A stretch of DNA of 32,790 bases from an uncultured Clostridia bacterium. Its GTDB lineage: Bacteria; Bacillota; Clostridia; Christensenellales; Aristaeellaceae. The position numbers and the translations under genes were made by a program. How positions within the stretch are numbered: position 1 is the stretch's first letter; the number at the start of each line of letters is the position of its first letter. The notes beneath the pieces were generated by a model. That model searched no databases. It was given only the letters and a program-made list of their open reading frames with translations, and had not been told where the DNA came from. Positions 999 to 28,243 of this stretch are shown here, in pieces. Location: NCBI GenBank assembly GCA_947166705.1, contig CAMVFE010000025.1, positions 1-32,790 of the forward strand, written 5' to 3'.

Positions 999-1124
999 GC
1001 GGATACTTTAACCTGCATTTTGGTAAATAATTCGCTCCCACAAAACTGAACAACGTAAAGGACCGACCCCTGTACCCATTCCCCCCAGCAACCCGCTCCC
1101 TCCGCACCAAAAGGGGTATCATTC

Positions 1125-4100
1125 ATGATGAAGCGTTTCAAAAGGTTCCTTTCCCTTTTCTGTACTGTCACCATGCTGACCGGCATGGCTGATTGTTATG
1201 CCGATTTGCCCGGAAACGGACCGGACGCGGCGCCCGCCGCGGCCGCAGAGCAGGCGGAGGTATCCGTTCCGGAGCCTGCGGCTCCGCCCGCGCCGGAGCC
1301 CGAACCGGAGCCCGAAAAGCCGGCCCCGAAGCAGGAGGCCGCGGAGCAGAAGCAGGAGGCTTCCTCCGCGGAGGAAAGCGCGCCGAAGCAGAAGCCTCCG
1401 GAGAACAAGGCGCCGGAGCAGAAGCAGGAAGCTTCCTCCGCGGACACGGCCGCTCCGAAGCAGAGCGCCCCGGAGAACAAGGCCCCGGAGCAGAAGCAGG
1501 AGCCCGTTCCGGAGGAGCCTCCGGCAGGCGGCGAAGCCTCTCAGCCGAAGGAATCGGCGGAGGAGCAGCCCTCCGCCCCTGAGCAGCAGGAGCCGCAGCC
1601 CGCTTCCACGGAAAGCGGCCCGGTGAACACCGGCGCGGAGGGCGCGGTCTCCCTGGATCCTCAGCCCGAGCCTTCGGCGGATCAGCCGGCCGGCGGAACC
1701 GGGCCTTCGGACAATCCCGCGGAGCAGGGCGGCTCGCCGGCAGGCGGGAACGATGAGCCCGGCAGCACGGCGGACGCTCCGAAGGAAAGCGGCGCTTCCG
1801 CGGAAATGAATCCCGGCGATGCGGACCGGAAGAATCCGGAGAATCCGCAGGCCGGCGGAGAGGATCCGGAGGATGTTACGGAGCTTCCCATCGGCGGAAA
1901 TCCGGTCCTGGCGGCCGCGTCCCCCGAAAAGCCCGCCCGGCTGCTGATCCGCTCGAAAAAGGCCGGAAAGCTTCTGCTGACGGTCCTTCTGACCGCCGGG
2001 GATCAGATCCTCCCGGCCGTTGAGGATGTCCCGCTGAATCCCGTCAGCACGGCAGCGGACGGGGATTCCGACAAGCAGCGGCTGGTTTACGAGCTGAACA
2101 CGGAAGCCGGTTCCTCCTGCCTCCTGGTGGTCGCCGCGCCAAAGGCGACGGAATTCTCCATCCAGGCCGCCCGCGAAGCGAAGGCTTCCCCGAAGGATGA
2201 GAAGCAGGCGCCTGCGAAGCCCGCCGAAGACGCAGGATCGGAGGAGGCGCCCGGAGCCGCGCAGGAAGCGGCCGGAGAGCCGGGATCGGACGATCCGGAA
2301 GGGAATCCGGCGGACGGGCCGGAGGGCGCGGCGCAGGAACAGACCGGAGTACAGGAGCCCGGTGAACCGGGGGAGAACCCGGAGGGTGATTCCGAAGAAA
2401 ACCCGGATGAAGGCGGGGATGTCCCGGAGGGAAAACCCGGCGATCCGGAAGAGAATCCGGAGGGCGAAAATCCGGAAGAAAACCCGGAGAATGTAAATCC
2501 GGAAGAGAATCCGGAGGAAGACCCGGAGGGCGATAATCCGAAAGAGACTCCGGACGAAGGCGAAGACGCCCCGGAGGGGGAACCCGGCGATCCGGAGGAA
2601 GACCCGGAAGGCGAAAATCCGGAAGAAAATCCCGAGGAAGAAGCCGACGGTCCGGACGAAGAAGCGGAGCCGTTCTCCGAGGGCGGCACCCTGACCGCGT
2701 CCGCCTCCGACTGCACGGTGACGGTGCGGTACGGCGCGGACGCGCTCTTCCCGGAGGACGTCACCCTGACCGTGGAGGAGGTTCTCCCGGGCACCGCGCG
2801 CTACGCGGAGCTGACCGGCCTCACGGAGGAGATGCTGACGAACGACTGGGTCGAAGCCGGCGCCTTCCAGCGGGTCTTTGACATCACGTTCCGCAGCGGC
2901 GATGAAGAAATTGAACCCGCCGCGGCGATCCAGGTGGATTTCCGGTTCAGCGATCCCGTTTCGCTGGAGGACAACAGCAGCCTGCAGGTCGTCCACGTGG
3001 ACCAGCAGAACAACGCCGAAATCGTACCGGCGGACGCCTCCGCGGCGCCCGCCGGCGCGGCTGTGGACGGCATTTCCTTCGCCTCCGACAGCTTCTCCGC
3101 CTACGTCGTTTTCCAGACCCGGGAGATCGTTTCCAAAACGATCGAGGACGAGGATCATATCGTTTCCATCACCTACGGCCGCGCCAACGGGATCCCGGAG
3201 AATTCCCAGGTCCTGGTGACCGCCATCGAAGAAGGGACGGAATCCCACGAAGCCTTTCGCCGGCGGCTGATTCAGCAGCTGAACCTGGACGAAAAGCGGC
3301 AGACCGTCCTTTTTTCTGCTCTGTACGATATTACCCTTCTGGACGAAAATAACAGCGAAGTCCCGATCCGGGACAACACCACGGTCACCGTGACCGCCGA
3401 GCTTCCCGCGGACGCCGCCCGGGAGGACGTGATGGTGATTCACTTCGACGGCAGCGGGGACGGCGCCAGCGAGCTGGACGCGACGGCCCGGGCCAACGTC
3501 GTGACCTTTGAAACCGACGGCTTTTCCGTCTACGGCTTTGCCTACACGGTGGATTATGCCTATCAGGGCTCTGAATACTGTATGCAGGGCGGCGGCAGCA
3601 TCACGCTGTCGGAGCTGTTCACCCTGCTGGACATCCCGGAAAGCGCGGCCGACGCCGAGAAGGCCGTGTTCAGCAACCCCGCCCTGATCCGCGTTGAGCG
3701 CGCGGAGGGCGACTGGCTGCTGACCAGCCTCCGGCCCTTTATGACCGAGGAAACCCTGACCGTCACCCTTTCCAACGGGCGGATGATCCTGATCACCGTG
3801 ACGGACGCCCCCACCGATCCCTGGTATATCCAGGACGGCGAGCTGCACATCATGTCGGACGCGGCGATGTATTTCACCCGCGCCGCCAACGCGCCCTGGT
3901 ACAGCCGGCGCAATGAGATCACCTCCATCATCATCGAAAACGGCGTGACGAAAATCCCCCAGAATTTTACCTACACCAACACCTCGACCGAGAACTATCC
4001 CAACCTGAAGAGCGTCACGGTCGCGGATTCGGTCAATACCATGGGCAGCAACGCCTTCTGTAACTGCAAGTCCCTGGAAAGCGTCACCCTGGGCGCAGGC

Positions 4101-7100
4101 CTCACCTCGCTGCCCCAGTACGCCTTCCGGTACTGCTCCGCCCTGAAAAGCATCGACCTGCAGCATGTAACCTCGATGAGCACCTACTGCTTCTACGGCT
4201 GCAGCTCGCTGGAGGAGGCCGTGCTGGGAGAAGGCCTGCAGACCCTTCCCTCTTACACGTTCCAGAACTGTTCCTCCCTGAAAAGCATCGACCTGAAAAA
4301 CGTAAAAACGATCAACTCCTCCTGCTTCTCCGGCTGCTCGGCGCTGGCGGAAGTGACCCAGGACGGCGAACTCCGGACCGTTGGCTATAGCGCCTTTGAT
4401 AACTGCCGGGCGCTGCAGTCCATCGACCTGACCGGCGTCACCTCCCTCGGCAGCTCCTGCTTCTACAACTGCACCGCGCTGAAGGAGGTCATCCTGGACG
4501 AAAACCTGAAAACCGTCCAGGGCAGCACCTTCCAGAACGCGAAGGCCCTGGAGACGATCAACCTTGAGAACGTCGAGAACTTCGACAGCTACTGCTTCTC
4601 CGGCTGCACGGCCCTGAAGAACGCCGACCTTTCATCCGCCAAAGCCATCGGCAGCTACGCGTTCCAGAACTGCACCGGCCTGACCGGGGCGGTGACGGGC
4701 GATGCCCTGAAAACCGTCGGCGAATGCGCCTTCTACGGCTGCTCCGGCCTGAAGGAGATCGACCTTTCATCCGCCACCGCCATCCAAAACTACGCGTTCT
4801 ATAACTGCACCGGCCTGACCGAAGCGGTCCTGGGCGATTCCCTGAAAACCATCGGCTCATACGCGTTCTATAACTGCGACTGCCTGACCGGAGTGGACAT
4901 TCCGGCCTCCGTGGAAAGCATCGGCGCCAGCGCCTTCGCCTCCTGCGACAAACTGGAATCGGTTTACTTTGATCCCCTCAACCGGATGACCACCCTGAGC
5001 GGGTCCGTCTTCAGCGCCTGCCCGAAGCTGCGGGACGTGGTCCTGCCCCAGGACCTGTACATCATCCCCTCCTCCATGTTCAGCGGCTGTAAGTCGCTGG
5101 AAACGGTGGAGATGCCCGCCAGCCTCAGCATCATCGACACCTACGCCTTCGACGGCTGCTCCGCGCTGACCGACGCGGCGCTGCCCTCCTACGTGAAGGA
5201 AATCCGAAACTATGCCTTCCGGAACTGCACGAACCTGGAGGATCCCGTCTTCCCCGAAACCCTGGAGAAGATCGGCGAAAGTGCCTATCAGAACTGCGAC
5301 GCCCTGACGGACGTGACGCTTCCGGCCTCCCTGACCTCGATCGGGAATCTCGCGTTTTCCGACTGCGCGAAGCTGGAATCCGCGGACCTGTCCCGCTGCG
5401 CCACGACGACCGTGCCCGATTACTGCTTCCGAAACGATCCCCTGCTGGAGTCGGTGCTGCTGCCCAAAAACCTGACGAAAATCGGCGCCAGCGCCTTCAA
5501 CAACGATCCGAAGCTCTCGGAGATCAACCTGCCGGAAACCCTGACCGAAATCGGGAACAGCGCGTTTTCCCAGTGCACGTCGCTCTCCGTGATCAACGAC
5601 GGCGCTCCCGGGGTGCTGGAGGTGCCGGAAAACGTGACCCGGATCGGCACGTCGGCCTTTAACCAGTGCAACAGCCTGACCGAGGCCTATATTCCCGACA
5701 GCGTCACCGACCTGGGCAGCTCCGCCTTCGCCAACTGCGCCAACCTGGAAAAGGCCGTCGTCGGTAAAGGCGTGACGCAGCTGAACCCCAGCGTGTTCTA
5801 CAACGATCCGAAGCTGAAGAGCATCACCTTCGAGAGCGAGCTGATCACGAAAATCCCCAACGACGCCTTCAATGGCTGCCGCAGCCTGGAGGAGTTCCCG
5901 TTCTGGGAGGGACTCAGGGAGATCGGAACCGGCGCGTTCCTGAACTGCACCTCCCTGAAATCCCTGGAATTCCCCTCCACCCTGGAAAAAATCGCGGACG
6001 GCGGCAGCGGATCCTTCGCCGGCTGCACCGGGCTGAAGGAGGTCGTCTTCAAGGACGGCGAAAAAGACCTGAACATCGGAAACTACGCGTTTTACCAGGA
6101 CCGGAACCTCACCTCCGTCAAATTCCCCGAAAACCTGACCCGGATCGGCTCCTACGCGTTCGGCGCCTACGGCAGCAGCACCTCCTACACGATGAACCTG
6201 GCCAACGTGGAGTTCCCGGAGAACTGCCGGCTGACCGAAATCGCCTCAGGCGCGTTCTACAACACGAAGATCCGGGAGCTGGACCTGCCGGATAACGTGA
6301 AAACCATCGGCGACAGCGCGTTCTACTACTGCCGGGAGCTGGAATCCGTCGATCTGCCGGACGGGCTGAAGAGTATCGGGGCCACCGCCTTCAGATACTG
6401 CTCCAAGCTGAAAACCGTCAGCGTTCCGGACAGCGTGACCTCCATCGGCTCCGGCGCCTTCCGGAACTGCAGCGCCCTGACGGAGGCGAAGCTGCCGAAG
6501 AATCTGGAAACCATCAATAATAACGTTTTCACCAGCTGCTCCAGCCTGGCGAAGGTGGAGATGCCGGAGACCCTGAAAACCATCGGGAGCTCCGCGTTCA
6601 GCAGCTGCGGCGCCCTGAAGGAGATCGACCTGCCCGCGACGCTGACCTCCATCGGCAACAGCGCCTTCAACTCCTGCGGGAGCCTCGCGAAGGTGAACCT
6701 GCCGGCGGATTCCCAGCTGGCCTCCATCGGCACCAGCGCCTTCAGCTCCAATTACGCGCTCAAGGAGATCAGCCTGCCGGACACCGTGACCTCCATCGGC
6801 TCCAGCGCCTTCTCTAACTGCACGGGGCTGACGAAGGCGGAGCTTTCGGAAAATCTCAAAACGCTGGAAAACAGCGTCTTCCAGAGCTGCACCAGCCTTA
6901 AAGAAGTTGATATGCCGGACAAGCTCGAAACCATCGGGAACAACACCTTCTACGGCTGCAGCTCCCTGAAGGAAGCCGATCTGCCCGCGACGCTGACCTC
7001 CATCGGCAACAGCGCGTTCTACGGCTGCAGCAGCATGACGAAAGTCTCCCTGCCGGAGGACTCCCAGCTGAAGACCATCTCCCCCTACGCGTTCCAGTTC

Positions 7101-10100
7101 TGCTCCAGCCTCCGGGAAATCGACCTGCCGGACACCGTGACCTCCATCGGAACGTGTGCCTTTGAAGGCTGCCGCGACCTGAAGACCGCGGACCTTTCGG
7201 ACGGCCTGAAGGCGATTGAAACCGCCGTGTTCAGAAACTGCCAGAACCTGACGGACATCGACCTGCACCAGGTGGAAACCATCGGCGAGGAGAGCTTCAA
7301 GGGCTGCGTGGCGCTCGGAGAAATCGACCTGCCCGACACGCTGAAAACCATCTCGAAGAATGCCTTCAACGGCTGCGGCTCCCTGCAGACGCTGGATATT
7401 CCCTCCGGGACCACCTCCATCGGGGAGGGCGCCTTCACCGGCTGCAAGGGGCTGGAATCCATGCGGTGGAACGCGAAGGACGGCGCCATCGAGCCGTTCT
7501 CCAGCGGCACGCGCTTCGCGCTGACCGTCGGCCGCGACGTGGACAACCTCTCCGCCGAAGCGCTGACGAACCTGTTCCGGGGCGGTGCGGAGGAAATCCG
7601 CTTCGAGGGCGGGAACTATCTGACCCTGCCCGACACCCGGAATATCGCCGACGGCGCGCGGGGGCTTCCCCGCCCCCTGAACGCGCTGGACGCGGGCTCC
7701 TACTACGCGGATGAAAACGGCGCCCTCTACGCCGTGCGGGACGGCCAGGCCTCCCTGGTCTATCTCCCGGACGGGCTGACGGAATACACCATTCCGGAAA
7801 CGATTCCCGGGGAGAACGGCGGAGACCCCGTGCCGGTCACCGGCGTCCGGGCCAACGCCCTGTACCAGGCCCAGGCGCTGACCGACCTGACCATCGAAAA
7901 ACCGGAAAACATGACGCGCATTGAGTCCAGCGCCTTTGCCAACGCCGCGAACCTGGCCTCCGTCAACGGGGAAACCACCTCCGCGGGCGCGACGGCGCTG
8001 TTCACCCATGAGGGCCTGATCATCGGCAACCAGGTTTTCTATCACACGAAGCTGGACCAGGAGGAGGACACCTCCGTCGCCGGATCGCTGGAATATACGG
8101 ACAGCGAGGATCCCGAGCAGGCCACGCTGAAGCTGACCATCAGCGAACTCGGGGATTCCCGCCGAGGCGACCGGGCCGGAAATCCCAAGCCGCTGGGAGA
8201 GCTGACCACCGACCCGGGCACGAACGCCTACCTGGCGTATACCGGCGAAACCGTCAAAACAATTCTCCAGATCTCCAACCCGGCCAGCGAGGAGATCCCG
8301 GACGACGGGCAGAAGATCCGCGTATACATCCAGCTCGACGAGGGCGGCGAAATCAGCAAGTTTGTGGCCGGCCGGGACAATATCATCAAGCAGACAAAGC
8401 CGAGCGCGGACGGTTTTGTGGAAGCCGATTACCATGTCACCCTGGTTGAAACCGATGTTCGGGGCGTCTATTACTTCGACCTTGACCGCCCGCAGAACGG
8501 CTTTACCGCAACGATCGAGCTGCCGGTCACCTTCAAGTCTCCCCAGACGGGCGGGGGCAACGCCGTCATCTGGGCGCAGTACATGGACGGGGAGGAAGCG
8601 GCGGCAAAGGCCGGCAAGGCCCAGCCCCCGGCCGGGGACCACCATACCGTCAACTGGAGCACGCGCCGCGATACCTTCCCGGTTTCCAAGACCGCTGACA
8701 GCAGCGCTCCCCTGAGCGTCACGGCCGCCGCGGACGGCAGGATCTACGTGAACGCCCATTCCTACCGGATCTCCATGCACCGCTCCAATACCGATTCGCT
8801 GGACGTGGGCCGGGATAACATGGCCAAGGCGGTCTTCACGGACACGCTCACCGTGCCGGAGGGCCTCGTGTTCAACGAAACCATCCGGCAGGAGATCCGC
8901 GACGGCAAAATCCGCTACCGCAACGACGGGGCCTACAAGTATGTGATCTCTCCCTCCTGCGGAGAAATCTTCCGGTTCTATGCCCCCAGCAACAGCGGCT
9001 TCCTGACGCCGCAGCTTTCGCTGGACGCGGACGACAATCTGCGGCTGCAGTGGACGATCCTGAACAGCAATCCCAACTACAACGAAAACGGCGGCCAGAT
9101 CGACCTGCCGAGCTATGTCACGATGACCGTGGGCGGCCGCGTATTCGCGGTTGAGGACAGGACGGCGGACCAGACCTACACCCTCCGGAACGAAGTGTCC
9201 GTCGCCCAGCATTACAGCTATTCCGGGGTCCATACGGAAACCTCCGCCGCCCAGTACCGCGTCAGCTCCGGCAGCGCGAAGCTGGAATTCAGCAAAACCT
9301 CCACCGCCTCTGCCAGGCGGGGCGAATACGCGCCCTTCACCCTTCAGCTCAAAAGTACCGGCGTGCTGCCGGTCACCAGCACGGAGCTGCCCCGGATCAC
9401 GGATGATATCGCGGACGATTACCGCCGTTTCTACATCCCTCCCGAGGGCATCTGGCAGATGTTCAGCGACGCGCATCTCGGCGACGCGCTGACCCTCACC
9501 GTCAGCGGGGCGCATCTCTACGGCGGCGCGGACGCGCTCGCGAAAACCCGGCAGACCGTGACCACGGTCAGCGGCGGCACGGGCACCACGGACGTTTCCA
9601 ACACCGGCTCCCAGCTGCACTACAGCGGGACTCACAGCCAGGAGGACAACATCGTCGACACCGAGGCGGTCTTCACCTTCACCCGCGTTGGCGGCGAGGT
9701 TCAGGTGACGCTGAGCTCCGGCGGTACCGAGGCCACGGAGACGGTGGGCTCCGCGGCGGACATCCGGGCCTTCATGGACCGGCACGGCTTCTTCGTCACC
9801 CGGTGGACCGCCTACAGAGCCGAGTGGGATACCACCCGGATCCCGGGCTTCCACATCGATCCCGGCCAGGACTGGCGCGTCACCATCCCGACCCGCCTGA
9901 AGGATACCTTCATGTCCCTGGAGTCGGACGATATCGAGTATCTGAAGCTCGGGGGCGATTCCACGAGAGGCACATACAATACGGCGAAGTTCGATTACAA
10001 CGGCAGCCAGACCGGCAGATCCGCCTTCACCACGTACGCCAACGACGCGTCCCTCAGCAAGGGCTACAGCTATGCCAAATCCTTCCGGTATAAAAACGAC

Positions 10101-13100
10101 TATACGGATATCGAAATCCCGGAGGTGGTCCGCTACAGCGTAAGCGCGTCCCATTCCGGCAGCACGGCCTACGGCGTCATGCCGCTGACCGACCACATGA
10201 CGCTCCGGCAGCAGCTCCTGGTCCCCGTCAGCAGGAACCAGGGCAAGGCCTGGGCGGAGGGGCTGGAGACCTATGCGCTCGACGGCGTCTCCTACTACGT
10301 GCTGAAGGAAGGCGAGTACAAGGACGTCCATACCGGCAGCGCCTGGGCGGACCACATCACCGTGGCGAACCTGGGCCAGGGAAATTACGATACGAAAATC
10401 TTCTGGTACCTGGACGGCTACCGCGGCAGCAGCACGACCACGATTTCCTACCTTGCGAAGGTGGAGCACAATCCCTTCGTTCCGCTGCAGAAGGCCTTTG
10501 ACATCCATAACGAATCCTGGCTCGGCGACCACGAGGCGCACCGCCTGTGGGACAGCGTCAGCAACGGCGAATACGTCGAGGGCGAGCCGCTTGTGACGTC
10601 GTACGGCAAAAAAATCGTGGGCTATGTGGGCGACACCTCCGAGGGCCGGGACTTCTCCTTTGTCGCCCGCGGCAACGAGGTCATCTACCGCCTGTCCTTC
10701 GCCAGCGACCTCCATCAGGACTTCACCGTCAACGGCACCCAGTTCTATGACATGCTGCCCGCCTTCAGCCCCGCGTTCTCCTGGTCGAAGGATACTGTCA
10801 GCCTGACCTACTGGAACTTCACGACCAATGACCCGGAAGACGTCAAATGGCAGATCATCCCGGACGAAAACAATCCCAACACCCGGCAGAGGATCCGGTG
10901 GGACGACGATTTCGAGATGACCTGCAGCAGCGAAACCGGGCGCGCGTACATCTACGTCACCCTGAAATTCCCGTCGGACGTTCTCTGGGACGATTATGTC
11001 CGGACCCACCAGGGCGGCTCCCTGAACAACACCTTCTACATCAAACGGAACTGGCTCAACTGGTCCAGCGCCGTCGTCCGCCACGAGCTGGCCGACACCG
11101 CTCAGGTCCGCCTGCAGAAGGGCGTGTACGCCACCGGCGGCGTGAACGACGAAAACGTGGATGTCTACCGCACCGGCGGCGATTCCCGCCTGACCTATGA
11201 AAACAACGACGTGATGAAGCGGAAGGTGTACTATTACATCACGCTGCACAACGGCGGATATACCAACCTGTACCTGAACGACATTCAGGACGTGCTGCCC
11301 CGCGGCTTCACGCTCGCCCCGCCCAGCAAGGCCGCCGCCTCGGACCAGAGTCCCCAGTCCACCCCGCGCATCGTGAGCGGCAGCTATGCCGCCGTCACGG
11401 ACGCGAACGGCCGGGGCGTGTCCTATCTCAGCGCCTCGAGCTCCTCCCTGACCGCCCGGACGGAGAATGCCGGAGACGGGCGCCAGCGGGTCGTCATGAC
11501 GCTGCGGCCCGGCGCCAATACCGGCGACGGAACCTCCCATTTCAACCCCTACCTGGACGGCGGGCGGTACTTCCTCCGTCCCGGGGAGGCCGTCGTGATC
11601 CGCCTCGACTGCTATACCAACGAATACGCTTCCACGGACGACAACGCCGAAAACGCGGCAGTCATGCCCTACTATGACTTCTACGGCCAGGGACTGATCC
11701 TGGACGACTCCACCGCCACCAGCGGGAACAGGGCTTCCCTGGCGGAGGCGGAGAAGAACGACGGCGGCTGCGAAATCATGGACAGCTCCTACGTCGGCGC
11801 CGCGGGCTTCAGCACCGCGGGCCAGACCCGGGCCACCCAGTGGCTTTACTCCGATGTCGCCGTCCGCCGCGGCGAGATACAGCCCGGGCTCTCCAAGAGG
11901 CTGCTCAAGACGATCGAGGTCAACTCGGACGGATACGAGGTGGAGAACCTCCATCCCGGCGTCCCCCACCCCAACGACAAGCTGGTCTGGTCCGTGGTCG
12001 CGGAAAACAGCGGATCCAGCCCGCTGCTCGACTATGTGGTCTCCGATCAGATGCCTCAGCCCTACGCCTTCAGCGGCGACGTCACCTTCCGGCAGATCTA
12101 CAACAGCGACGGCGAAGCGAGCCCCGAAATCGTGCTCTTCAGCGTGCGCGGGCGTTCCGTCGTGATGGTGGGCGGTGAAAAGCAGGCCGGCCCCGGGATG
12201 ACGCTCGTCACCTACGCCGCCGACGGGGCAGAGGCCGCTTCCTGCCCGCTCACCGTCGACGGGGATCCGGTCACCCTGGCCGTTCCGAACTGGCGCGGCG
12301 GAAACTGCAGCATCCAGGTCAGCGCAAAGACGGTCAACGGGAACGAGACGATGTTTATCCGCTTCCCGGATAAGGAAATGTGCGTCCTTTCCGGCGGAAA
12401 GCTCGTGATGACCTTCATCTCGGAGAATGTACCCGGAGTGATGCAGAACAAGGTGTTCGTCAACCGGGCCTACATCACCCCCTCCGCCGGACAGCAGACC
12501 CTCTGGGACGGGCTGACCGACGAAGGCAGCATCACCCCCTGGGCGGTCCCGAACGCAACGGGCGCGCAGCGCTCCGTCTCCTCCAGCGCGCAGGTCATCA
12601 CCAGCTACGGCTCTTCAACCAGCTCCATCAAGTCCATTCATGAAAAGGCGGATCCCTCCAACAGGACCAATTCGGATCTGACCCCGAACTATATCACGCT
12701 GCCCGATAAAAAGAGCGTCTTCACCTATTCGCTCAGCGTGACCAACTCCACCTACCAGCCCATCCGGGATCTGGTGCTCATCGACAACCTGCCGGAGGTA
12801 AACGACCACACCACCTTCCAGGCCTCCGATCCGCGCGGCAGCGCCTTCCGGGTGCTCTTCAACGAAGAGCCGGCGTTCACCCTCACGGTGCGGGACGTCC
12901 TGACTCCGAACGTGGTCAGGACCATCGATCCGCGGTACTACCGGGTCGAGCTGAGCCGGAAGACCGATTTCAGGCCCGCGGACTGGAGCGGCTCCGCCTC
13001 CGCGGACTGGACGGAGCTCGCGGCGATTCCGGCCGGCCAGAGGTCCTCCTACCGCTCCGCGCGGATCGTCTTCCACGACGACGCGGTCGGGAATTCCAGC

Positions 13101-16100: not shown

Positions 16101-19100
16101 GCCCCGGCCTCCGGCGAAAGCGAGGCTGTGTTCGAAAACCACTACGAAGCCGAAGGCTCAGGCGTCCTGAGCGTTCGCAAAACCATCGACGGGCGCGGCT
16201 TCCTCCCGGGCGAAAGCTTCACCTTTGAGCTGACGCCTCTGGAAAGCGCGCCGCTGAGGACCGCGGACGGCGATCAGGAAAAGCTGACCGTCCGCGCCGA
16301 ATCCCCGGACGAAGTACCCTTTGATGAAATGCTGTTCCGCGTCCCGGACCTGGATAACGGCGACGGAACCTGGAGCGAAAAGGACTTCACCTACACCCTC
16401 CACGAGGTCGTTCCGGAGAATGCGTCTGTTAAGGACGGCGGAGCCGTGCTCCTGTATCAGGACGCCTCCGCGGAGAAGAAAAAGGAATACGACGGGCAGT
16501 GGACCCTGGACGGCATCACCTACGCCGCGGACCGAACCGTCACCCTGCATGTCGCCGACAGCCGGGACGGAACCCTTTCCGTCACCCCCGGCACGGGGCT
16601 GAACGGGGACGGCCGCGCGGATGCTGTGAACCCCTACGCGGCCGAAGGCGCCGGCGTCCTCCGCGTGCGTAAAACCATCAGCGGGCGCGGCTTCCTCCCG
16701 GGCGAAAGCTTCACCTTTGAGCTGACGCCTCTGGAAAGCGCGCCGCTGAGGACCGCGGACGGCGATCAGGAAAAGCTGACCGTCCGCGCCGAATCCCCGG
16801 ACGAAGTACCCTTTGATGAAATGCTGTTCCGCGTCCCGGACCTGGATAACGGCGACGGAACCTGGAGCGAAAAGGACTTCACCTACACCCTCCACGAGGT
16901 CGTTCCGGAGAATGCGTCTGTTAAGGACGGCGGAGCCGTGCTCCTGTATCAGGACGCCTCCGCGGAGAAGAAAAAGGAATACGACGGGCAGTGGGCCCTG
17001 GACGGCATCACTTATGCGGCGGACCGGACCGTCACCCTGCATGTCGCGGACCGCGGGGACGGCAGCCTTTCCGTCACCCCCGGCGCGGGGCTGGACGAAG
17101 AGGGCGCCGCGGACGTCGTGAACCCCTACGCGGCCGAGGGCCGCAGGACGCTCCGCGTCCGGAAGGCCATCGACGGCCGCGCCTTCCTCCCGGGCGAAAG
17201 CTTCACCTTTGAGCTGACGCCTGTGGGCGGCGCGCCGCTGCGAACCGCAGACGGAGGCCAGGAAAAGCTGACCCTCCGGGCCGGTTCCGACGGGGCGGTA
17301 TCCTTTGACGAACTTCTGTTCAGCATCCCGGACCTGGATAACGGCGACGGGACCTGGAGCAAAAAGGAATTCACCTACACCATCCACGAGGTGGTTCCGG
17401 AAGGGGCCTCCGTCGCCGAAGGAAGAGGAAAGCTCCTCTACGCGGAAGCCTCCGGGCAGCAGCAGCAGGACCACGCCGGAAAGTGGGCCTTCGACGGCAT
17501 CGTCTACGCAAAGGACCAGACCGTGACCCTGCGGGTCGAGGACGACGGCGCGGGCCGGCTGACCGTGACCCCGCTGGGAACGGACAGCGCGGATTCGGTC
17601 TCCTTCACCAACGAATTCCGGCCCGAGCTGATCACCGCGCCCATCCGCGCGGACAAGGCCTGGCTGAACTATGACGGAACAACCAATCCCCCCGCCGGCG
17701 CGAAGGCGGCCCTCTCGCTCTTCGCGGACGGCGAGGCCACCGGCCGGACTGTCGAGCTGGACGGCGGGACGGACGCCGAAACGGCGGACGGGCGGACGGA
17801 CGGCGAATACGAGCCCTGGAAGGCGGTCTGGAACGACCTGCACGTCTACCGGAGAGGCGCGGACGGCCGCTGCATCCCGGAGGGGGACGACTATCAGCGG
17901 ATCGTGTACACCGTCAGGGAAACTGAAATCACCCTGCCGGAGGACTGCTATGCCTCCTACGCTTCCGACGAGCCTGAGGAAGGCGCGGCGGCCTCCGGGG
18001 ATCCCGCCTCTGCCCTGCTGACCAACGTGCAGGAAACGGGAAGCCTGACCGTCTCCAAGAAGGTGGATACGCCGCTGGCGAAGGAGGAAAACAAGGCGTT
18101 TACCTTCCGCATCGAGCTGTCGGATCCGACGGTCAGCGGAACCTTCGACGGCGTTCCCTTCACGGACGGCGCCGCGGAGGTTACGGTCCGGGGCGGCGAA
18201 AGCCTCACCGTCACCGGCCTGCCGCAGGGCCTCGGGTACACCGTGACCGAGCAGCCCGATCCCGACTTCATTCCGGACGAAGCCGTCCGGACCGGCGTGA
18301 TCGGCGCGGAGGAAGCCTCCGCCGAATTCCTGAACACCCGGAAAACCGCGGAGATCCGCGTCACGAAGGTGTACAGCGGCATCCCGCAGCTGCCGGAAGG
18401 CTTTGTGATCACCAACGACTACAATCAGGAAAAATTCACCGTCAAAAACGCGTCCGGCAAGGGAACGGAAAAGGATCCCTACGTCTGGATCCTTTCCGGC
18501 GTGCCCGTCGGCCTCCGGGTCGTCTTCACGGAATCCGGCATCCAGGCCGCCGACTATTCGCTGACCGTGAACGGCACCGCGGTCACCGAAACCTCCGCCG
18601 CCGTCGCGGCGGACGCGGAGGAAGCGCCGGACGCGAAGAACGCGAAGAACGCCGCCGGGTTTGTGAACGTCTACACCTATCAGGCCAGGGGCTCCCTGTC
18701 CCTGAAGAAAATCTTTGAATTCCGCGGCGGCAAACCGGAGCCGGCTCCCGCGCCGCCGGAAGCCGGGCCGACACCCGCGCCGGAGCCGGAACCGCAGCCT
18801 GAGGAAAAGATCCCGACCACCAGCCTCGCGGTCCGGAAGGTCTGGGATGACGACGGAAACGCGGCGGGCCTGCGCCCGGCCCATGTCACGATGACGCTGA
18901 GCAACGGCACGCGCGTCGTCCTGAACGAGGCGAACGGCTGGCAGGCGGTCGTATCCGGGCTGCCCCTGATGGTCGACGGAAAACCCGCCAGGTACTCCTG
19001 GAAGGAATCCGCCGTTCCCGGATACACCCTGGTCCGGACCGCCGTCACCGGCGGAACCACCATCTTTGTCAACGCGCTGCGCCAGCGCGAGGAGCCGCCG

Positions 19101-19214
19101 GAGGGCAGGCCGGTCTACGGCAGCCGCGGAACCGCGTACCTGATCATCGAAGACTACGGCACGCCCCTGGGCGTGGAGTGCGCAATTAACCACGCGGGCG
19201 ACTGCTTCGACTAA
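1125..19214 (+). CDS. Giant secreted BspA-type LRR / Cna-B isopeptide-domain surface protein
   Basis: A 6029-residue protein in one open frame, with ATG at 1125 and AAGGGG 8 bases upstream. A signal peptide (1 to about 26, MMKRFKR plus a hydrophobic stretch) leads into Pro/Glu/Ala/Lys-rich repeats (about 28-255), a small beta-like segment (256-345) and a second Pro/Glu/Gly/Asn repeat (350-515). Uncharacterised beta domains follow (520-920). Then come about fifty BspA/LRR_5 repeats of 23-24 residues (932-2115, one stray near 2260), of the form I...AF..C..L..I.LP. DUF11-like and other beta domains span about 2300-4050. SpaA, Spy0128/FctA-like and Cna-B domains span about 4054-5985, including three tandem 164-residue copies (5009-5501). 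The final Cna-B domain keeps a plausible isopeptide triad (K in RKVW, E in WKES, N in FVNAL). The C-terminus is a tail ending YGTPLGVE...GDCFD. There is no LPXTG, SLH domain or terminal helix. It is probably an adhesin: LRRs for binding, Cna-B domains as a protease-resistant stalk. Ligand and anchor are unknown. Confidence 0.9.
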   Translation: MMKRFKRFLSLFCTVTMLTGMADCYADLPGNGPDAAPAAAAEQAEVSVPEPAAPPAPEPEPEPEKPAPKQEAAEQKQEASSAEESAPKQKPPENKAPEQKQEASSADTAAPKQSAPENKAPEQKQEPVPEEPPAGGEASQPKESAEEQPSAPEQQEPQPASTESGPVNTGAEGAVSLDPQPEPSADQPAGGTGPSDNPAEQGGSPAGGNDEPGSTADAPKESGASAEMNPGDADRKNPENPQAGGEDPEDVTELPIGGNPVLAAASPEKPARLLIRSKKAGKLLLTVLLTAGDQILPAVEDVPLNPVSTAADGDSDKQRLVYELNTEAGSSCLLVVAAPKATEFSIQAAREAKASPKDEKQAPAKPAEDAGSEEAPGAAQEAAGEPGSDDPEGNPADGPEGAAQEQTGVQEPGEPGENPEGDSEENPDEGGDVPEGKPGDPEENPEGENPEENPENVNPEENPEEDPEGDNPKETPDEGEDAPEGEPGDPEEDPEGENPEENPEEEADGPDEEAEPFSEGGTLTASASDCTVTVRYGADALFPEDVTLTVEEVLPGTARYAELTGLTEEMLTNDWVEAGAFQRVFDITFRSGDEEIEPAAAIQVDFRFSDPVSLEDNSSLQVVHVDQQNNAEIVPADASAAPAGAAVDGISFASDSFSAYVVFQTREIVSKTIEDEDHIVSITYGRANGIPENSQVLVTAIEEGTESHEAFRRRLIQQLNLDEKRQTVLFSALYDITLLDENNSEVPIRDNTTVTVTAELPADAAREDVMVIHFDGSGDGASELDATARANVVTFETDGFSVYGFAYTVDYAYQGSEYCMQGGGSITLSELFTLLDIPESAADAEKAVFSNPALIRVERAEGDWLLTSLRPFMTEETLTVTLSNGRMILITVTDAPTDPWYIQDGELHIMSDAAMYFTRAANAPWYSRRNEITSIIIENGVTKIPQNFTYTNTSTENYPNLKSVTVADSVNTMGSNAFCNCKSLESVTLGAGLTSLPQYAFRYCSALKSIDLQHVTSMSTYCFYGCSSLEEAVLGEGLQTLPSYTFQNCSSLKSIDLKNVKTINSSCFSGCSALAEVTQDGELRTVGYSAFDNCRALQSIDLTGVTSLGSSCFYNCTALKEVILDENLKTVQGSTFQNAKALETINLENVENFDSYCFSGCTALKNADLSSAKAIGSYAFQNCTGLTGAVTGDALKTVGECAFYGCSGLKEIDLSSATAIQNYAFYNCTGLTEAVLGDSLKTIGSYAFYNCDCLTGVDIPASVESIGASAFASCDKLESVYFDPLNRMTTLSGSVFSACPKLRDVVLPQDLYIIPSSMFSGCKSLETVEMPASLSIIDTYAFDGCSALTDAALPSYVKEIRNYAFRNCTNLEDPVFPETLEKIGESAYQNCDALTDVTLPASLTSIGNLAFSDCAKLESADLSRCATTTVPDYCFRNDPLLESVLLPKNLTKIGASAFNNDPKLSEINLPETLTEIGNSAFSQCTSLSVINDGAPGVLEVPENVTRIGTSAFNQCNSLTEAYIPDSVTDLGSSAFANCANLEKAVVGKGVTQLNPSVFYNDPKLKSITFESELITKIPNDAFNGCRSLEEFPFWEGLREIGTGAFLNCTSLKSLEFPSTLEKIADGGSGSFAGCTGLKEVVFKDGEKDLNIGNYAFYQDRNLTSVKFPENLTRIGSYAFGAYGSSTSYTMNLANVEFPENCRLTEIASGAFYNTKIRELDLPDNVKTIGDSAFYYCRELESVDLPDGLKSIGATAFRYCSKLKTVSVPDSVTSIGSGAFRNCSALTEAKLPKNLETINNNVFTSCSSLAKVEMPETLKTIGSSAFSSCGALKEIDLPATLTSIGNSAFNSCGSLAKVNLPADSQLASIGTSAFSSNYALKEISLPDTVTSIGSSAFSNCTGLTKAELSENLKTLENSVFQSCTSLKEVDMPDKLETIGNNTFYGCSSLKEADLPATLTSIGNSAFYGCSSMTKVSLPEDSQLKTISPYAFQFCSSLREIDLPDTVTSIGTCAFEGCRDLKTADLSDGLKAIETAVFRNCQNLTDIDLHQVETIGEESFKGCVALGEIDLPDTLKTISKNAFNGCGSLQTLDIPSGTTSIGEGAFTGCKGLESMRWNAKDGAIEPFSSGTRFALTVGRDVDNLSAEALTNLFRGGAEEIRFEGGNYLTLPDTRNIADGARGLPRPLNALDAGSYYADENGALYAVRDGQASLVYLPDGLTEYTIPETIPGENGGDPVPVTGVRANALYQAQALTDLTIEKPENMTRIESSAFANAANLASVNGETTSAGATALFTHEGLIIGNQVFYHTKLDQEEDTSVAGSLEYTDSEDPEQATLKLTISELGDSRRGDRAGNPKPLGELTTDPGTNAYLAYTGETVKTILQISNPASEEIPDDGQKIRVYIQLDEGGEISKFVAGRDNIIKQTKPSADGFVEADYHVTLVETDVRGVYYFDLDRPQNGFTATIELPVTFKSPQTGGGNAVIWAQYMDGEEAAAKAGKAQPPAGDHHTVNWSTRRDTFPVSKTADSSAPLSVTAAADGRIYVNAHSYRISMHRSNTDSLDVGRDNMAKAVFTDTLTVPEGLVFNETIRQEIRDGKIRYRNDGAYKYVISPSCGEIFRFYAPSNSGFLTPQLSLDADDNLRLQWTILNSNPNYNENGGQIDLPSYVTMTVGGRVFAVEDRTADQTYTLRNEVSVAQHYSYSGVHTETSAAQYRVSSGSAKLEFSKTSTASARRGEYAPFTLQLKSTGVLPVTSTELPRITDDIADDYRRFYIPPEGIWQMFSDAHLGDALTLTVSGAHLYGGADALAKTRQTVTTVSGGTGTTDVSNTGSQLHYSGTHSQEDNIVDTEAVFTFTRVGGEVQVTLSSGGTEATETVGSAADIRAFMDRHGFFVTRWTAYRAEWDTTRIPGFHIDPGQDWRVTIPTRLKDTFMSLESDDIEYLKLGGDSTRGTYNTAKFDYNGSQTGRSAFTTYANDASLSKGYSYAKSFRYKNDYTDIEIPEVVRYSVSASHSGSTAYGVMPLTDHMTLRQQLLVPVSRNQGKAWAEGLETYALDGVSYYVLKEGEYKDVHTGSAWADHITVANLGQGNYDTKIFWYLDGYRGSSTTTISYLAKVEHNPFVPLQKAFDIHNESWLGDHEAHRLWDSVSNGEYVEGEPLVTSYGKKIVGYVGDTSEGRDFSFVARGNEVIYRLSFASDLHQDFTVNGTQFYDMLPAFSPAFSWSKDTVSLTYWNFTTNDPEDVKWQIIPDENNPNTRQRIRWDDDFEMTCSSETGRAYIYVTLKFPSDVLWDDYVRTHQGGSLNNTFYIKRNWLNWSSAVVRHELADTAQVRLQKGVYATGGVNDENVDVYRTGGDSRLTYENNDVMKRKVYYYITLHNGGYTNLYLNDIQDVLPRGFTLAPPSKAAASDQSPQSTPRIVSGSYAAVTDANGRGVSYLSASSSSLTARTENAGDGRQRVVMTLRPGANTGDGTSHFNPYLDGGRYFLRPGEAVVIRLDCYTNEYASTDDNAENAAVMPYYDFYGQGLILDDSTATSGNRASLAEAEKNDGGCEIMDSSYVGAAGFSTAGQTRATQWLYSDVAVRRGEIQPGLSKRLLKTIEVNSDGYEVENLHPGVPHPNDKLVWSVVAENSGSSPLLDYVVSDQMPQPYAFSGDVTFRQIYNSDGEASPEIVLFSVRGRSVVMVGGEKQAGPGMTLVTYAADGAEAASCPLTVDGDPVTLAVPNWRGGNCSIQVSAKTVNGNETMFIRFPDKEMCVLSGGKLVMTFISENVPGVMQNKVFVNRAYITPSAGQQTLWDGLTDEGSITPWAVPNATGAQRSVSSSAQVITSYGSSTSSIKSIHEKADPSNRTNSDLTPNYITLPDKKSVFTYSLSVTNSTYQPIRDLVLIDNLPEVNDHTTFQASDPRGSAFRVLFNEEPAFTLTVRDVLTPNVVRTIDPRYYRVELSRKTDFRPADWSGSASADWTELAAIPAGQRSSYRSARIVFHDDAVGNSSCVFPRNSEITLSFDAVIDGSDPEAQPGRIAWNSFGYQFMDGANPMEAAPLEVGVRIPDLPKVSKTLINSLGKPFAAEQDESFTYVLYKGAPVTVQDGQNPLDAVTAAGRDYATVTVTVPAGGSEAGPVSFNGVPGHYRDGSGYRNGEWLMVNKAAYTLCEIPAEFFMAESFNNRKVQQYQFTYNANSKAFSISSVNRHDDWNLDLRKTDQLSRKLAGAVFAFYTPLENERCMTEAEYRALSLQALNDAFGLALTEKPAYTLESEGTSYALYTLARTDDLGALRLTELMAGAYLCREVQSPGPEYLMDESMRRVERPAASDGAVRTVSVENHYKASGEVTIDAAKQLDGRCLKEGEFRFRLEGYDLVQKRPLTDADPQPPMPAALETANGADGEIRFGPIPLTEANIGETYCYRITEIVPEEDQRPFGVTYDERKIIVKLTVTDGGNGRIDKALTYSMVNEHDEETTLTGDSAKFLNTYRAEASLVLRTRKILEGRAWKASDSFAFQLAGIPDPEDPEAPWDEIILRQTASQARQDPPFVLGYTEQDIGHTYHYRITEEIPRKAAAYHADTGEAVKYKKKDLTYSKYLTLTDEEKAALPPAEKLRWKYNGLVSDTTAFLLQVAVRYDEETGKLKTEALLDGQPLPSGLDAAEPVAFRNVYQADNLEASLPVGKTLRNRPWKRLSKPGDANADPYPDAYRFTLEAEDPAAYTPLPEESGRTVTVVRADMTTLPETQTAKFTIPYRWDDLLADGERLSSRDFYYIIREEIDPEAAGARVTRDESGRITGYVLDQVTYDLSVRRVKITLRDNGSGGLAAQAVYLDSDGNPVDSLVKATDPFVNTYAPEPIDVPIRLSKLVNGIPAPRGSYTFTLYDQSGDPVKENLAIDAGEGGTELEAVIEKLGTEFTSWTDPDRTYTFTLRENIPADALGYRDGKPLGTDGNVLAEGGEPLAWADADDSRADPSIVWKKDGMRYDAAPVTVTVTLSMDQLQYRLGATVAYSPAPASGESEAVFENHYEAEGSGVLSVRKTIDGRGFLPGESFTFELTPLESAPLRTADGDQEKLTVRAESPDEVPFDEMLFRVPDLDNGDGTWSEKDFTYTLHEVVPENASVKDGGAVLLYQDASAEKKKEYDGQWTLDGITYAADRTVTLHVADSRDGTLSVTPGTGLNGDGRADAVNPYAAEGAGVLRVRKTISGRGFLPGESFTFELTPLESAPLRTADGDQEKLTVRAESPDEVPFDEMLFRVPDLDNGDGTWSEKDFTYTLHEVVPENASVKDGGAVLLYQDASAEKKKEYDGQWALDGITYAADRTVTLHVADRGDGSLSVTPGAGLDEEGAADVVNPYAAEGRRTLRVRKAIDGRAFLPGESFTFELTPVGGAPLRTADGGQEKLTLRAGSDGAVSFDELLFSIPDLDNGDGTWSKKEFTYTIHEVVPEGASVAEGRGKLLYAEASGQQQQDHAGKWAFDGIVYAKDQTVTLRVEDDGAGRLTVTPLGTDSADSVSFTNEFRPELITAPIRADKAWLNYDGTTNPPAGAKAALSLFADGEATGRTVELDGGTDAETADGRTDGEYEPWKAVWNDLHVYRRGADGRCIPEGDDYQRIVYTVRETEITLPEDCYASYASDEPEEGAAASGDPASALLTNVQETGSLTVSKKVDTPLAKEENKAFTFRIELSDPTVSGTFDGVPFTDGAAEVTVRGGESLTVTGLPQGLGYTVTEQPDPDFIPDEAVRTGVIGAEEASAEFLNTRKTAEIRVTKVYSGIPQLPEGFVITNDYNQEKFTVKNASGKGTEKDPYVWILSGVPVGLRVVFTESGIQAADYSLTVNGTAVTETSAAVAADAEEAPDAKNAKNAAGFVNVYTYQARGSLSLKKIFEFRGGKPEPAPAPPEAGPTPAPEPEPQPEEKIPTTSLAVRKVWDDDGNAAGLRPAHVTMTLSNGTRVVLNEANGWQAVVSGLPLMVDGKPARYSWKESAVPGYTLVRTAVTGGTTIFVNALRQREEPPEGRPVYGSRGTAYLIIEDYGTPLGVECAINHAGDCFD
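1344..1515 (+). repeat. 72-bp tandem repeat coding a Lys/Gln/Glu/Pro-rich N-terminal segment
   Basis: About three imperfect units begin at 1344, 1416 and 1488, exactly 72 bases (24 residues) apart. Each starts EQKQE and the first two continue into ASSA. A whole-codon period means copy-number change alters segment length without breaking the frame. Such segments commonly act as wall-spanning spacers; here that is inference. Confidence 0.75.
2400..2660 (+). repeat. 147-bp and shorter Pro/Glu/Gly/Asn repeats
   Basis: Two long units (PDEGGDVPEGKPGDPEE and PDEGEDAPEGEPGDPEE) sit 147 bases (49 residues) apart. Between and after them are short ENPEE/ENPEG units. The DNA is built from repeated CCGGA(A/G)GA(A/G)AAT-like words, so slippage or recombination could change its length in multiples of three. 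The product is a highly acidic, probably extended linker. Confidence 0.7.
3900..7480 (+). repeat. BspA-type leucine-rich repeat array (about 50 repeats)
   Basis: These bases encode back-to-back repeats of 23-24 residues with the core pattern AF..C..L..I.LP..L..IG. This is the LRR_5/BspA class seen in surface proteins of anaerobes and protists. The first third alternates two registers (DL...SI...CF and LG..L.T...AF), giving a double repeat of about 46 residues; later repeats are more uniform. The repeat count is by eye. Confidence 0.85.
16149..17624 (+). repeat. Three tandem 492-bp repeats, two with a 313-bp identical block
   Basis: Copies begin at 16149, 16641 and 17133, each exactly 492 bases (164 residues) apart, and each encodes one isopeptide-type stalk domain (LPGESFTFELTP ... 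DLDNGDGTWS). Bases 16190-16502 and 16682-16994 are identical over 313 bases, including third codon positions, while the flanks differ. Copy 3 is clearly diverged. This indicates a recent duplication or gene conversion between copies 1 and 2. Confidence 0.95.
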
Positions 19215-19225
19215 GCGGCGGATAA

Positions 19226-19244
19226 GCCGCGGCATCCCCGCGGC
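19226..19244 (+). other. GC-rich hairpin between the two surface-protein genes
   Basis: A perfect 7-bp stem (GCCGCGG, loop CATCC, CCGCGGC) lies 12 bases after the stop of the giant gene in the 78-base gap before the next gene. No U-tract follows, so it is unlikely to be a full intrinsic terminator. It could protect the upstream mRNA end or attenuate read-through, which would set the ratio of the two proteins. Function is inferred. Confidence 0.45.
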
Positions 19245-19292
19245 GGCGCCCGCAGCGGAACAAAAAGGCCCTGAAGGAATCAGAGGGGGAAG

Positions 19293-20381
19293 ATGGAGAT
19301 GAAAAAAGCTTTCGGAAGGCTGCTTGCGCTGATGTGCACGCTGACTTTGCTGCTGTGCGGAACCGCTCCGGCGGAGGGGGCGGCCGCGCCCTCCCCGGCC
19401 TCCGCCGCGGAAACCACCCCTTCCCCGGAGGAGCTCGGCGGGCTGGTGTTCCGGATTGACGGGCCCGGAGAAGGCCAGTCCGTCACCGTGAAATACAGCG
19501 ATTTCCGGGACGGGGAATACCTCCTGGAGAATCTGGCGCCGGGAACCTACACCGTCACGGAAATCAATCCCGACCGTCTGGTCGATGGGTATACCCTGAA
19601 CCGCGGGGAAAGCGTGCGGAAGGCGACCGTCGAGGTGAAGGCGGACGGGAAGGCCGTCGTGACGCTGAAGAACATCTACGAGAAAAGCCCGGAAGGCGGG
19701 GACGAACGGATCAGCATCCGCGTGTCCAAGGTCTGGGAGGATGCCGGCAACCGGGACGGAAACCGGCCGCAGCGGGTCACGGTGAACCTGTTGGCCGACG
19801 GGAAGCGCGCGGCCGGCGCCGTGCTGAACGAGGCCGGCGGATGGGCCTGGGAGTTTACGGACCTGCCGCGCTTCGCCGGCGGCCGGGAGATTCACTACAC
19901 CGTGACGGAGGATCCGGTGCCCCTGTATACGGCGCGGGTGGACGGCTTCGTCATCACGAACGCCTATACTCCCGGGACGACCAGCGCCTCCGTCGCGAAG
20001 GTATGGCTGGACAACGAAAACGAAAAGGGCCTCCGCCCCGCCGCGGTCCGCTGCACCCTGAGCAGCGGGGACAGCGTCCTGCTGAACGAAGCCAACGGCT
20101 GGCAGGCCACGGTCGAGGGGCTGCCGGCGGTCGTAAACGGAAAGCCGGCGGAATATACCTGGACGGAGCAGGAAGTGATCGGATACGAAAATACCGCCGT
20201 CGACCGCAGCGGCAATCTTACTGTTTTCACCAACGCCCTGACGGAGCGCGGCGAACTCCTGCCGGAGGGAAAGCGCGTACCCGTCGAGCGGCGCGGGGAC
20301 GCCTTCCTGGTCATCCGGGAGTACGGAACGCCCCTGGGCGTGGAAACCGAAATCAACCACGTCGGCGACTGCTTCGACTGA
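19293..20381 (+). CDS. Small secreted Cna-B protein, partner or paralogue of the giant adhesin
   Basis: A 362-residue protein. The signal peptide has a hydrophobic core at about 8-22 with probable cleavage after APA at 27; there is no lipobox. A SpaA-like domain (about 46-128, ending TLKNIY) is followed by two Cna-B domains (about 130-225 and 229-315). Isopeptide residues are visible: K in SKVW and AKVW, E in TVTE and TWTE, N in ITNAY and FTNAL. The second Cna-B domain and the tail (319-362) closely match the last 130 or so residues of the upstream giant, including NEANGWQA and the ending YGTPLGVE...INH.GDCFD. A GAGGGGG site precedes ATG 19293 closely; ATG 19299 would be better spaced, so the true start may be two codons later. 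The 78-base gap suggests one operon with the giant. It could be a minor subunit, a cap or an anchoring partner. No sortase or LPXTG is seen. Confidence 0.85.
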   Translation: MEMKKAFGRLLALMCTLTLLLCGTAPAEGAAAPSPASAAETTPSPEELGGLVFRIDGPGEGQSVTVKYSDFRDGEYLLENLAPGTYTVTEINPDRLVDGYTLNRGESVRKATVEVKADGKAVVTLKNIYEKSPEGGDERISIRVSKVWEDAGNRDGNRPQRVTVNLLADGKRAAGAVLNEAGGWAWEFTDLPRFAGGREIHYTVTEDPVPLYTARVDGFVITNAYTPGTTSASVAKVWLDNENEKGLRPAAVRCTLSSGDSVLLNEANGWQATVEGLPAVVNGKPAEYTWTEQEVIGYENTAVDRSGNLTVFTNALTERGELLPEGKRVPVERRGDAFLVIREYGTPLGVETEINHVGDCFD

Positions 20382-20406
20382 TTCAGGCGGCTGCTTCGAC
20401 GGATTC
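20364..20406 (+). repeat. Direct repeat of the gene's own 3' end
   Basis: Bases 20364-20384 (the codons for GDCFD, the stop and the next three bases) recur at 20386-20406 with 19 of 21 positions identical, 22 bases later. The second copy lies outside the gene. It looks like a small tandem duplication of the conserved C-terminal coding end. Confidence 0.75.
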
Positions 20407-20409
20407 CGC

Positions 20410-20438: not shown

Positions 20439-20502
20439 AGCCCTGCGGCCTGCCGGCTCCTCCGGGAGAAAAATACGGCGGCGGACAGGAGGGGGGGCAC
20501 CC

Positions 20503-28234: not shown

Positions 28235-28243
28235 ATGTCCCGT

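Follow-up and report, generated by a model that had tools for sequence, protein, structure and literature searches.

Rumen and gut Clostridia encode giant adhesins, 6,000 and perhaps up to 11,000 residues long, that lack a recognisable anchor; how they are held at the cell surface is the question raised by the locus described here. The window, meaning the whole stretch of 32,790 nucleotides that was analysed, is the entire contig C25 (CAMVFE010000025.1) of an uncultured Clostridia bacterium, whose assembly (GCA_947166705.1) amounts to 2.18 Mb and is 71% complete. It encodes a giant adhesin of 6029 residues and, adjacent to it, a small protein of 362 residues, and both end in the same short C-terminal peptide, hereafter called the tail. 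In many related loci the gene after the tail gene encodes a solute-binding protein (SBP) of the SBP_bac_5 family, of about 630-840 residues. From this pairing, a role of the tail as a docking signal is proposed below. Loci, genomes and contigs are denoted by L, G and C, respectively.

A common C-terminus in two surface proteins

The original prediction, made from the letters of the window alone, held that the two proteins share a paralogous C-terminus. This was confirmed: they are 57% identical over the final 134 residues (E 1e-47), and YGTPLGVE..INH.GDCFD forms the exact C-terminus of both. The alignable paralogy consists of a Cna-B domain and a separable tail of about 22 residues; in several relatives the tail core comprises only the last nine or so residues. 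The absence of an LPXTG end, an SLH domain and a C-terminal helix, likewise claimed beforehand, was borne out by the Pfam listing and the Kyte-Doolittle profile. Past the first 45 residues, the most hydrophobic 19-residue segment reaches only 1.29 in the giant and 0.62 in the small protein, and a C-terminal helix is therefore lacking in both. Neither an LPXTG end nor a basic C-terminal end is present in either protein (the LPxTG-like strings of the giant are all internal), no SLH domain was listed by Pfam for either of them, and no listed best-matching stretch of Pfam or NCBIfam extends into either tail.

The tail gene and its neighbour

The tail and the SBP gene occur together in three settings. 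The pair is found in adhesin loci (contigs C43, C4 and C18 of the window's own assembly), in sortase-pilus operons, where signal peptidases and ordinary LPXTG proteins are encoded too, and in operons of a signal peptidase and a sortase, where the sortase itself bears the tail. Two sortases of one locus (L091) belong to class C according to NCBIfam. In L046 a sortase carries a degraded tail (only SSQVGDCFE) and no SBP follows.

To quantify the pairing, an SBP profile built from 18 seeds was scanned over 84,980 species genomes; it retrieved at least 485 relatives, the best 80 loci of which were used. As the seeds are themselves tail neighbours, the test is not fully independent, and near-copies of seeds turned up in four of the 80 loci. 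The tail profile A4 (21 tails) predates the SBP scan, two or so of its tails coming from loci in the scored set. When the near-copies were removed (76 loci), A4 detected the tail at 10 bits on 60 of 65 upstream C-termini and on none of 586 other genes; at 5 bits it was detected on 61 upstream C-termini and three other genes. A second profile, A7, which contains tails of the set, matched 65/69 upstream and 2/618 other genes in all 80 loci, and 61/65 and 2/586 without the near-copies. Its two matches to other genes (L110, L157) lie upstream of SBPs that were overlooked by the simple gene caller. By eye, the upstream gene is tail-ended in 69 of the 80 loci, and five loci have less than 170 bases of upstream sequence. 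With the addition of loci that had been fetched by the tail itself, the counts became 108/115 upstream against 26/945 others.

The pairing was also followed through the 45 genomes of the window's genus, where at most 26 SBP candidates were scored per genome, the last seven tail matches (E above 0.0267) were omitted and split SBP matches were merged into 121 places. A same-strand SBP lies within 800 bp downstream of 67 of the 115 tails at E<=1e-3 (about 4e-4 per tail is expected by chance), and 85 of the 121 SBP places have an upstream tail match. An SBP match is present in 39 of the 41 tail-positive genomes and a sortase in 35. A co-occurring membrane enzyme, for which the original prediction had proposed to look, was not supported; the most constant partner found is a secreted protein of the SBP fold. 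A mutual pairing of the window's two proteins was rejected as a general rule and the suggested link between these neighbours was not supported, since elsewhere the recurrent neighbour of a tail gene is an SBP gene and a single tail protein followed by an SBP is common.

According to their NCBI labels, which are labels of metagenome bins, three of the 80 loci (L112, L115 and L116; Flexilinea for two of them) belong to the Chloroflexota and the rest to the Clostridia. The tail lies upstream of the SBP in L112 and L115, and L116 has no tail on its contig. If the labels hold, these loci suggest transfer between phyla.

Anatomy of the tail

The residues of the tail were counted in 108 non-redundant tails upstream of SBPs, a set chosen by profile score, which favours the motif. 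The last residue is always acidic (Glu in 75, Asp in 33). It is preceded at position -2 by Phe, Tyr, Ile, Leu, Val or Ala in 108/108, and position -5 is Gly in 105. At position -3 a Cys is found in 90 tails, while Thr, Ser, Ala, Ile or Leu takes its place in the remaining 18. The Cys was accordingly rejected as an essential element, and the idea that the single Cys is the active part of the tail was not borne out. In four loci (L137, L149, L162 and L176) TPLG has decayed or changed, and INHVGDC[FY][DE] is intact. Together with the positional counts, this indicates a core of about nine residues in fixed register to the free C-terminus. Weak tail matches that had been suspected to be LPXTG variants proved, in the fetched loci, to be Cys-less tails or tails of the GICFE/GVCLE type. 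INHVGD, preceded by DE.TPL, does bear what we take to be some resemblance to LPxTGD, and an origin of the tail as a decayed LPXTG signal is conceivable.

Correspondence between tail classes and binding proteins

A FastTree phylogeny was built for 91 of the 108 paired SBPs, namely those of 550 residues or more. On this tree the tail classes require 17 changes, against 48.4 when shuffled, and none of 200 shufflings was as low. The INHVGDC (17) and N[HN]VGDT (4) tails make up one group of 21, and all 11 [HQ]xG[VI]C tails fall in one group of 13, together with two related G[VI]C tails. The sortase fusions are split across the tree: the SBPs of L044, L103, L108 and L111 lie in its NxG[DE]C part, apart from those of L045, L048, L049, L050 and L053, which have [HQ]xG[VI]C tails. 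Tail class therefore follows the SBP more than the architecture of the host protein.

Many tails have no SBP gene beside them. In 22 of the 23 genomes with strong unpaired tails (E<=1e-12), a paired tail is present too. For a closer comparison, 74 tails were drawn from 25 genomes; the 69 that belong to the INH class were kept, and the five of other classes were excluded. Over 22 residues, identity between the 41 unpaired tails and the paired ones is 0.897 within a genome and 0.776 between genomes. The own-genome tail is the closer one for 39 of 41, a result reached by 0 of 2000 block permutations. For the preceding 100 residues (one such body was too short) the values are 0.503 and 0.479, with 30 of 40 closer to their own genome. 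The tails of one genome hence change together far more than the adjoining domains do, as would be expected if one receptor were shared. Gene conversion limited to the gene ends is an alternative explanation of this joint change.

Both window proteins have unpaired INH-class tails. Searches of their own assembly, with one tail and with a profile of both, gave five clear places, two of them in the window, two in adjacent genes on C43 and one on C4, as well as a weak sixth place on C18. These further places, together with the profile matches across the genus, show that the shared end exceeds chance. Three SBP genes of the subfamily are present in the same assembly, one each on C43, C4 and C18, and all come after a tail gene. 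Those on C43 and C4 follow INHVGDC tails like the window's, whereas the one on C18 follows a tail of another class.

The solute-binding protein family

All four SBPs scanned clear the Pfam gathering score of SBP_bac_5 (PF00496; 32.4 bits) with 106-127 bits. Against the NCBIfam model Opp4A, three scanned SBPs score 71-97 bits, far below the cut-off of 650. The nearest structures by sequence are those of OppA (9p48 and 3drf). An AlphaFold2 model of the SBP has a mean predicted local distance difference test score (pLDDT) of 86.6 and a predicted template modelling score (pTM) of 0.84; its best match in the PDB is AppA of B. subtilis with a bound nonapeptide (1xoc), and complexes of L. lactis OppA with peptides also rank high.

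The N-termini resemble signal peptides, and none of 91 SBPs has a hydrophobic segment beyond residue 60. By pattern, a lipobox-like string occurs in 11 of 68 SBPs and is lacking in 57. Among the 60 genes downstream of the SBP, no Pfam family appears in more than three, as judged from 25 of the 74 families, and no recurrent ABC permease is found beside the SBP. In L206 a low-scoring SBP relative with no tail before it has a permease-like gene next to it, and by eye this relative looks like a component of a true importer. At E<=1e-110, with at most three candidates scored in each, the SBP subfamily was not found in 397 other genomes of the phylum. A separate observation concerns locus L205 (1986-5054; contig C18 of G018), where a secreted stalk with a long PTDK repeat runs in-frame into the N-lobe of an SBP of the tail-paired family and bears no tail.

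Distribution and host proteins of the tail

The tail is widespread in the window's genus and also present in three sister genera. Profile A4 matches 41 of the 45 genomes of the genus at E<=0.05, and an order-wide search found it at E<=0.001 in 9 of 297 genomes, all in the window's family and spread over four genera. Among 398 genomes of the phylum, the window's own genome was the sole match, and a search of viral contigs with the 362-residue protein returned no relative.

The proteins that carry the tail differ, and the stretch before it is a variable linker. When at most 600 C-terminal residues were taken from each of 65 tail proteins, Pfam reported Cna_B in 34, MucBP in 29, DUF7507 in 21, DUF11 in 21, FctA in 9 and MBG_2 in 4; elsewhere the tail follows MucBP, MBG, DUF11 or class B sortase modules. 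The possibility that the tail is merely the last strand of the Cna-B fold was ruled out at the level of sequence, on account of the variable Cna-B-to-tail linker and the 31 of 65 tail proteins that have no Cna_B in this region. The tail thus stands as a signal-like C-terminal element in its own right, as had been predicted.

Some class B-like sortases that have a hydrophobic anchor at the N-terminus are likewise tail-ended. The two that were scanned against NCBIfam are assigned to class B with scores under the equivalog cut-off, and they match the LPKTxAVK-type model more weakly. In nine loci (L044, L045, L047-L051, L053 and L054) such tail-ended sortases have extracellular extensions, composed of MucBP, of MBG-like modules or of up to 11 Cna_B stretches, and the SBP gene comes next. 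Sortase and tail protein are separate genes in L106 and L107. The largest host observed lies on contig C4 of the window's own assembly (G000; L008, 2-6121): a frame of 11,632 codons ends in a tail of the window's class (G000:C4:46043-46117) and is followed by an SBP gene. It possibly encodes a surface protein even larger than the giant of the window.

Proposed docking role and alternative explanations

We consider it somewhat probable that the tail acts as a docking peptide for a predicted dedicated, secreted peptide-binding protein, which would be one receptor for several clients. The clients would be giant adhesins, stalk proteins with MucBP or Cna-B domains from sortase-pilus operons, and class B sortases that are extended on the extracellular side. 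After export, each client would expose a flexible C-terminus of approximately N-x-V-G-[D/E]-[C/T]-hydrophobic-[D/E]-COOH, the last residues of which may be held in the cleft of the SBP, a secreted protein of the OppA/AppA fold. The SBP gene normally follows the gene of one client, and the same SBP would serve clients encoded elsewhere in the genome. The window proteins would be such remote clients, with their likely partners encoded on C43 and C4. The purpose might be to retain or assemble large surface proteins non-covalently at the envelope. Docking would explain why the motif keeps its distance to a free C-terminus, why the genes are paired, why many tails go with one SBP and why the tails of a genome change together. 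The match between tail class and SBP, the predicted fold and the tail-less stalk-SBP frame of L205 also speak for it. The original prediction had offered an anchoring, processing or assembly signal or a docking peptide; docking is the part favoured here, and the route through the Cys and the link between the two window proteins are the parts that fell away.

Several results weigh against this reading. Six of the 80 SBP loci have upstream sequence and no tail (L116, L117, L121, L146, L147 and L156). In the genus, 48 of the 115 strong tails, the window pair among them, have no adjacent SBP, and 36 of the 121 SBP places have no upstream tail match, although some of these show Cys-less tails by eye. 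Two tail-positive genomes, G061 and G019 (68% and 87% complete), are without an SBP match, and three of the four tail-less genomes have one (low-scoring only in G031 and G067, strong in G020). G018, which is 97% complete, possesses two INH-class tails, none of them paired; its loci include two adjacent giants like those of the window (L207) and an SBP after a weak tail (L204). Joint inheritance of linked neighbours would also yield much of the match between tail class and SBP. In the comparison of paired and unpaired tails, the control with the preceding 100 residues was likewise reached by 0 of 2000 permutations, though the effect is small, and an analysis of covariation between tail and SBP columns (effective number of sequences, Neff, 41) gave no clear outcome. 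The nickel-binding proteins NikA and NikZ are among the best fold matches of the SBP model; with peptide and nickel binders both near the top, the fold alone does not tell the ligand. Finally, neither the adhesin-type clients nor the SBPs have a visible anchor, which leaves the retention of the complex at the cell unexplained.

One comparison for a short C-terminal signal is a sortase substrate. Sortases of any class occur in 36 of the 45 genomes of the genus, and none was found in the window's own, 71% complete assembly. On these counts the idea that the tail exists because the genus lacks sortases was rejected. A general replacement of the sortase signal by the tail, as in the original prediction, was not supported either, as most genomes have a sortase and LPXTG proteins stand beside the tail protein in pilus operons. 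A more specific version, in which the tail is a short helix-less sortase signal that a class B sortase cleaves near V-G to join the protein to the wall or pilus, seems improbable. A published short signal read by a class B sortase (that of AbpA; PMC4974636) and the class B matches of the two scanned tail-bearing sortases speak for it, but the tail contains neither Thr-Gly nor LPXT, the sortases carry it themselves, and the SBP is its closer and more constant partner. In addition, a sortase went undetected in six of the 41 tail-positive genomes, the window's included; these genomes are 54-85% complete, so that its absence is not proven. The purpose could also be reversed, with an anchor-less SBP tethered via the tails of sortase, pilus or adhesin to capture peptides or solutes near the cell. 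This is unlikely, even though the export features of the SBPs (signal-peptide-like N-termini, no membrane helix in 91, few lipobox-like strings) fit it and the sortase fusions appear to be membrane-anchored at the N-terminus while bearing the tail: no transporter family recurs beside the SBP in the downstream genes described above, and a giant adhesin without an anchor would make a poor tether.

Operon neighbours often share a pathway without physical contact. The tail might accordingly bind a wall component or another receptor, with the SBP as a co-transcribed accessory that has a ligand of its own (its fold family includes nickel binders) and makes no contact with the tail. We regard this as improbable, given that the SBP pairs with tails across client architectures and tail classes and that unpaired tails vary in step with the paired one in their genome. 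OppA-type proteins also act as peptide receptors, and the conserved part of the tail is peptide-sized; the tail could then be clipped and the released peptide caught by the SBP as a cue. Such signalling is highly improbable, as among the families listed none of the permease, kinase or regulator type was seen next to the pair in more than three of 60 loci, and the conservation includes the free C-terminus on huge structural proteins. Against these alternatives, docking by a dedicated SBP is retained as the favoured explanation.

If docking is correct, a receptor-type tag would account for the non-covalent holding of giant adhesins, and secreted SBPs that annotation would call transport proteins would gain a function. 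A short peptide tag would also have been obtained together with its matching binder. The proposed surface-display system would range over gut and rumen Clostridia, plus rumen Chloroflexota if the bin labels hold.

Features of the window

The positions of the two proteins and their C-terminal elements are collected in Table 1. The giant adhesin begins, by eye, with a signal-peptide-like start, followed by a Pro/Glu-rich low-complexity region. Pfam, run on the protein as two halves, identified an array of BspA-type LRR_5 repeats, FctA (seven matched stretches), DUF7601 and Cna_B, the last of which stops ahead of the linker and tail. The small protein consists of a signal-peptide-like N-terminus (by eye), a SpaA/DUF5979-like domain, two Cna_B stretches and the tail.

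Table 1. Tail-bearing proteins of the window and the elements at their C-termini
Feature	Position	Strand	Basis or detail
Giant adhesin, 6029 residues	1125..19214	+	Open reading frame list, Pfam
Last Cna_B (PF05738) of the giant protein	18828..19064	+	Pfam, residues 2902-2980 of the second half
Tail of the giant protein, GTAYLIIEDYGTPLGVECAINHAGDCFD	19128..19211	+	Core INHAGDCFD at 19185-19211
Small protein, 362 residues	19293..20381	+	Open reading frame list, Pfam
Tail of the small protein, GDAFLVIREYGTPLGVETEINHVGDCFD	20295..20378	+	Core INHVGDCFD at 20352-20378

Two repeats were noted within these genes. A tandem array at 16137-17401 (period 492 bases, 2.6 copies, 90% matches) lies in the FctA-rich part of the giant gene and is a recent domain duplication. 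At 20364-20406 the bases that encode GDCFD in the small protein are near-copied just past the stop (22-base period, two copies), which looks like a duplication of the tail end. Very long open frames on the minus strand opposite the giant gene (1119-4166, 6246-11969 and 16158-20546) are taken as a by-product of base composition and repeats.

The giant gene is adjoined by a gene resembling component I of heptaprenyl diphosphate synthase (69-902); by eye, a gene with a similar start lies downstream of a tail-SBP pair in L154 (4843-5349). A GH5 cellulase-like gene is located at 27001-28236, and GH5 look-alikes (by eye) occur in or near sortase-pilus loci of relatives (L089, 12978-14282; L090, 7727-8947; L099, 1670-2893). 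Near the contig end (30001-32000), next to an ion-channel-like gene (29718-30659), the G+C content falls to 0.40 after values of about 0.61-0.66, and this may be an acquired segment.

Comparison with known systems

No description of this tail or of the tail-SBP pair was found in open-licence papers, among the matches listed. The chance is about even that a novel surface-display system is involved, one with a soluble tail, a repurposed binder of the OppA/AppA type, one receptor per tail class and several clients. It resembles the LPXTG/sortase system in that stalk proteins of the Cna-B, FctA and MucBP types bear a short signal at the C-terminus and in that sortase-pilus operons are among its hosts. 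It differs in that the tail contains no LPXTG, membrane helix or basic end and that the partner gene encodes an SBP; moreover, LPXTG proteins coexist with the tail protein in one operon.

Another likeness is offered by AbpA of oral streptococci, which has an LPKTS-AVK signal without a helix that is read by the class B sortase SrtB (PMC4974636). As in the tail, this signal lies a few residues from the C-terminus, a membrane helix is absent and class B sortases come into consideration. The tail core INHVGDCFD, in contrast, has no LPKT, its partner is an SBP_bac_5 protein, its clients are many and sortases themselves carry it.

The PEP-CTERM, GlyGly-CTERM and MYXO-CTERM tags combine a hydrophobic segment with a membrane enzyme (exosortase, rhombosortase and myxosortase, respectively). 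They share with the tail the principle of a C-terminal tag common to many unlike surface proteins. The tail, by comparison, is soluble, without a hydrophobic segment, and its factor is a secreted binding protein. A many-to-one pairing with one factor is indicated for GlyGly-CTERM by the title of the respective paper; papers listed include PMC3237569, PMC11980579 and PMC1569441.

The receptor side, finally, resembles the cluster C solute-binding proteins (OppA, AppA; PF00496), with which the SBP shares sequence family, predicted fold and an expected peptide cleft. In Gram-positives, a lipoprotein anchor is the usual form of OppA-type binding proteins. The SBP departs from these in mostly having no lipobox-like string and in having no recurrent permease or ATPase neighbour; its gene follows that of a tail-bearing surface protein.

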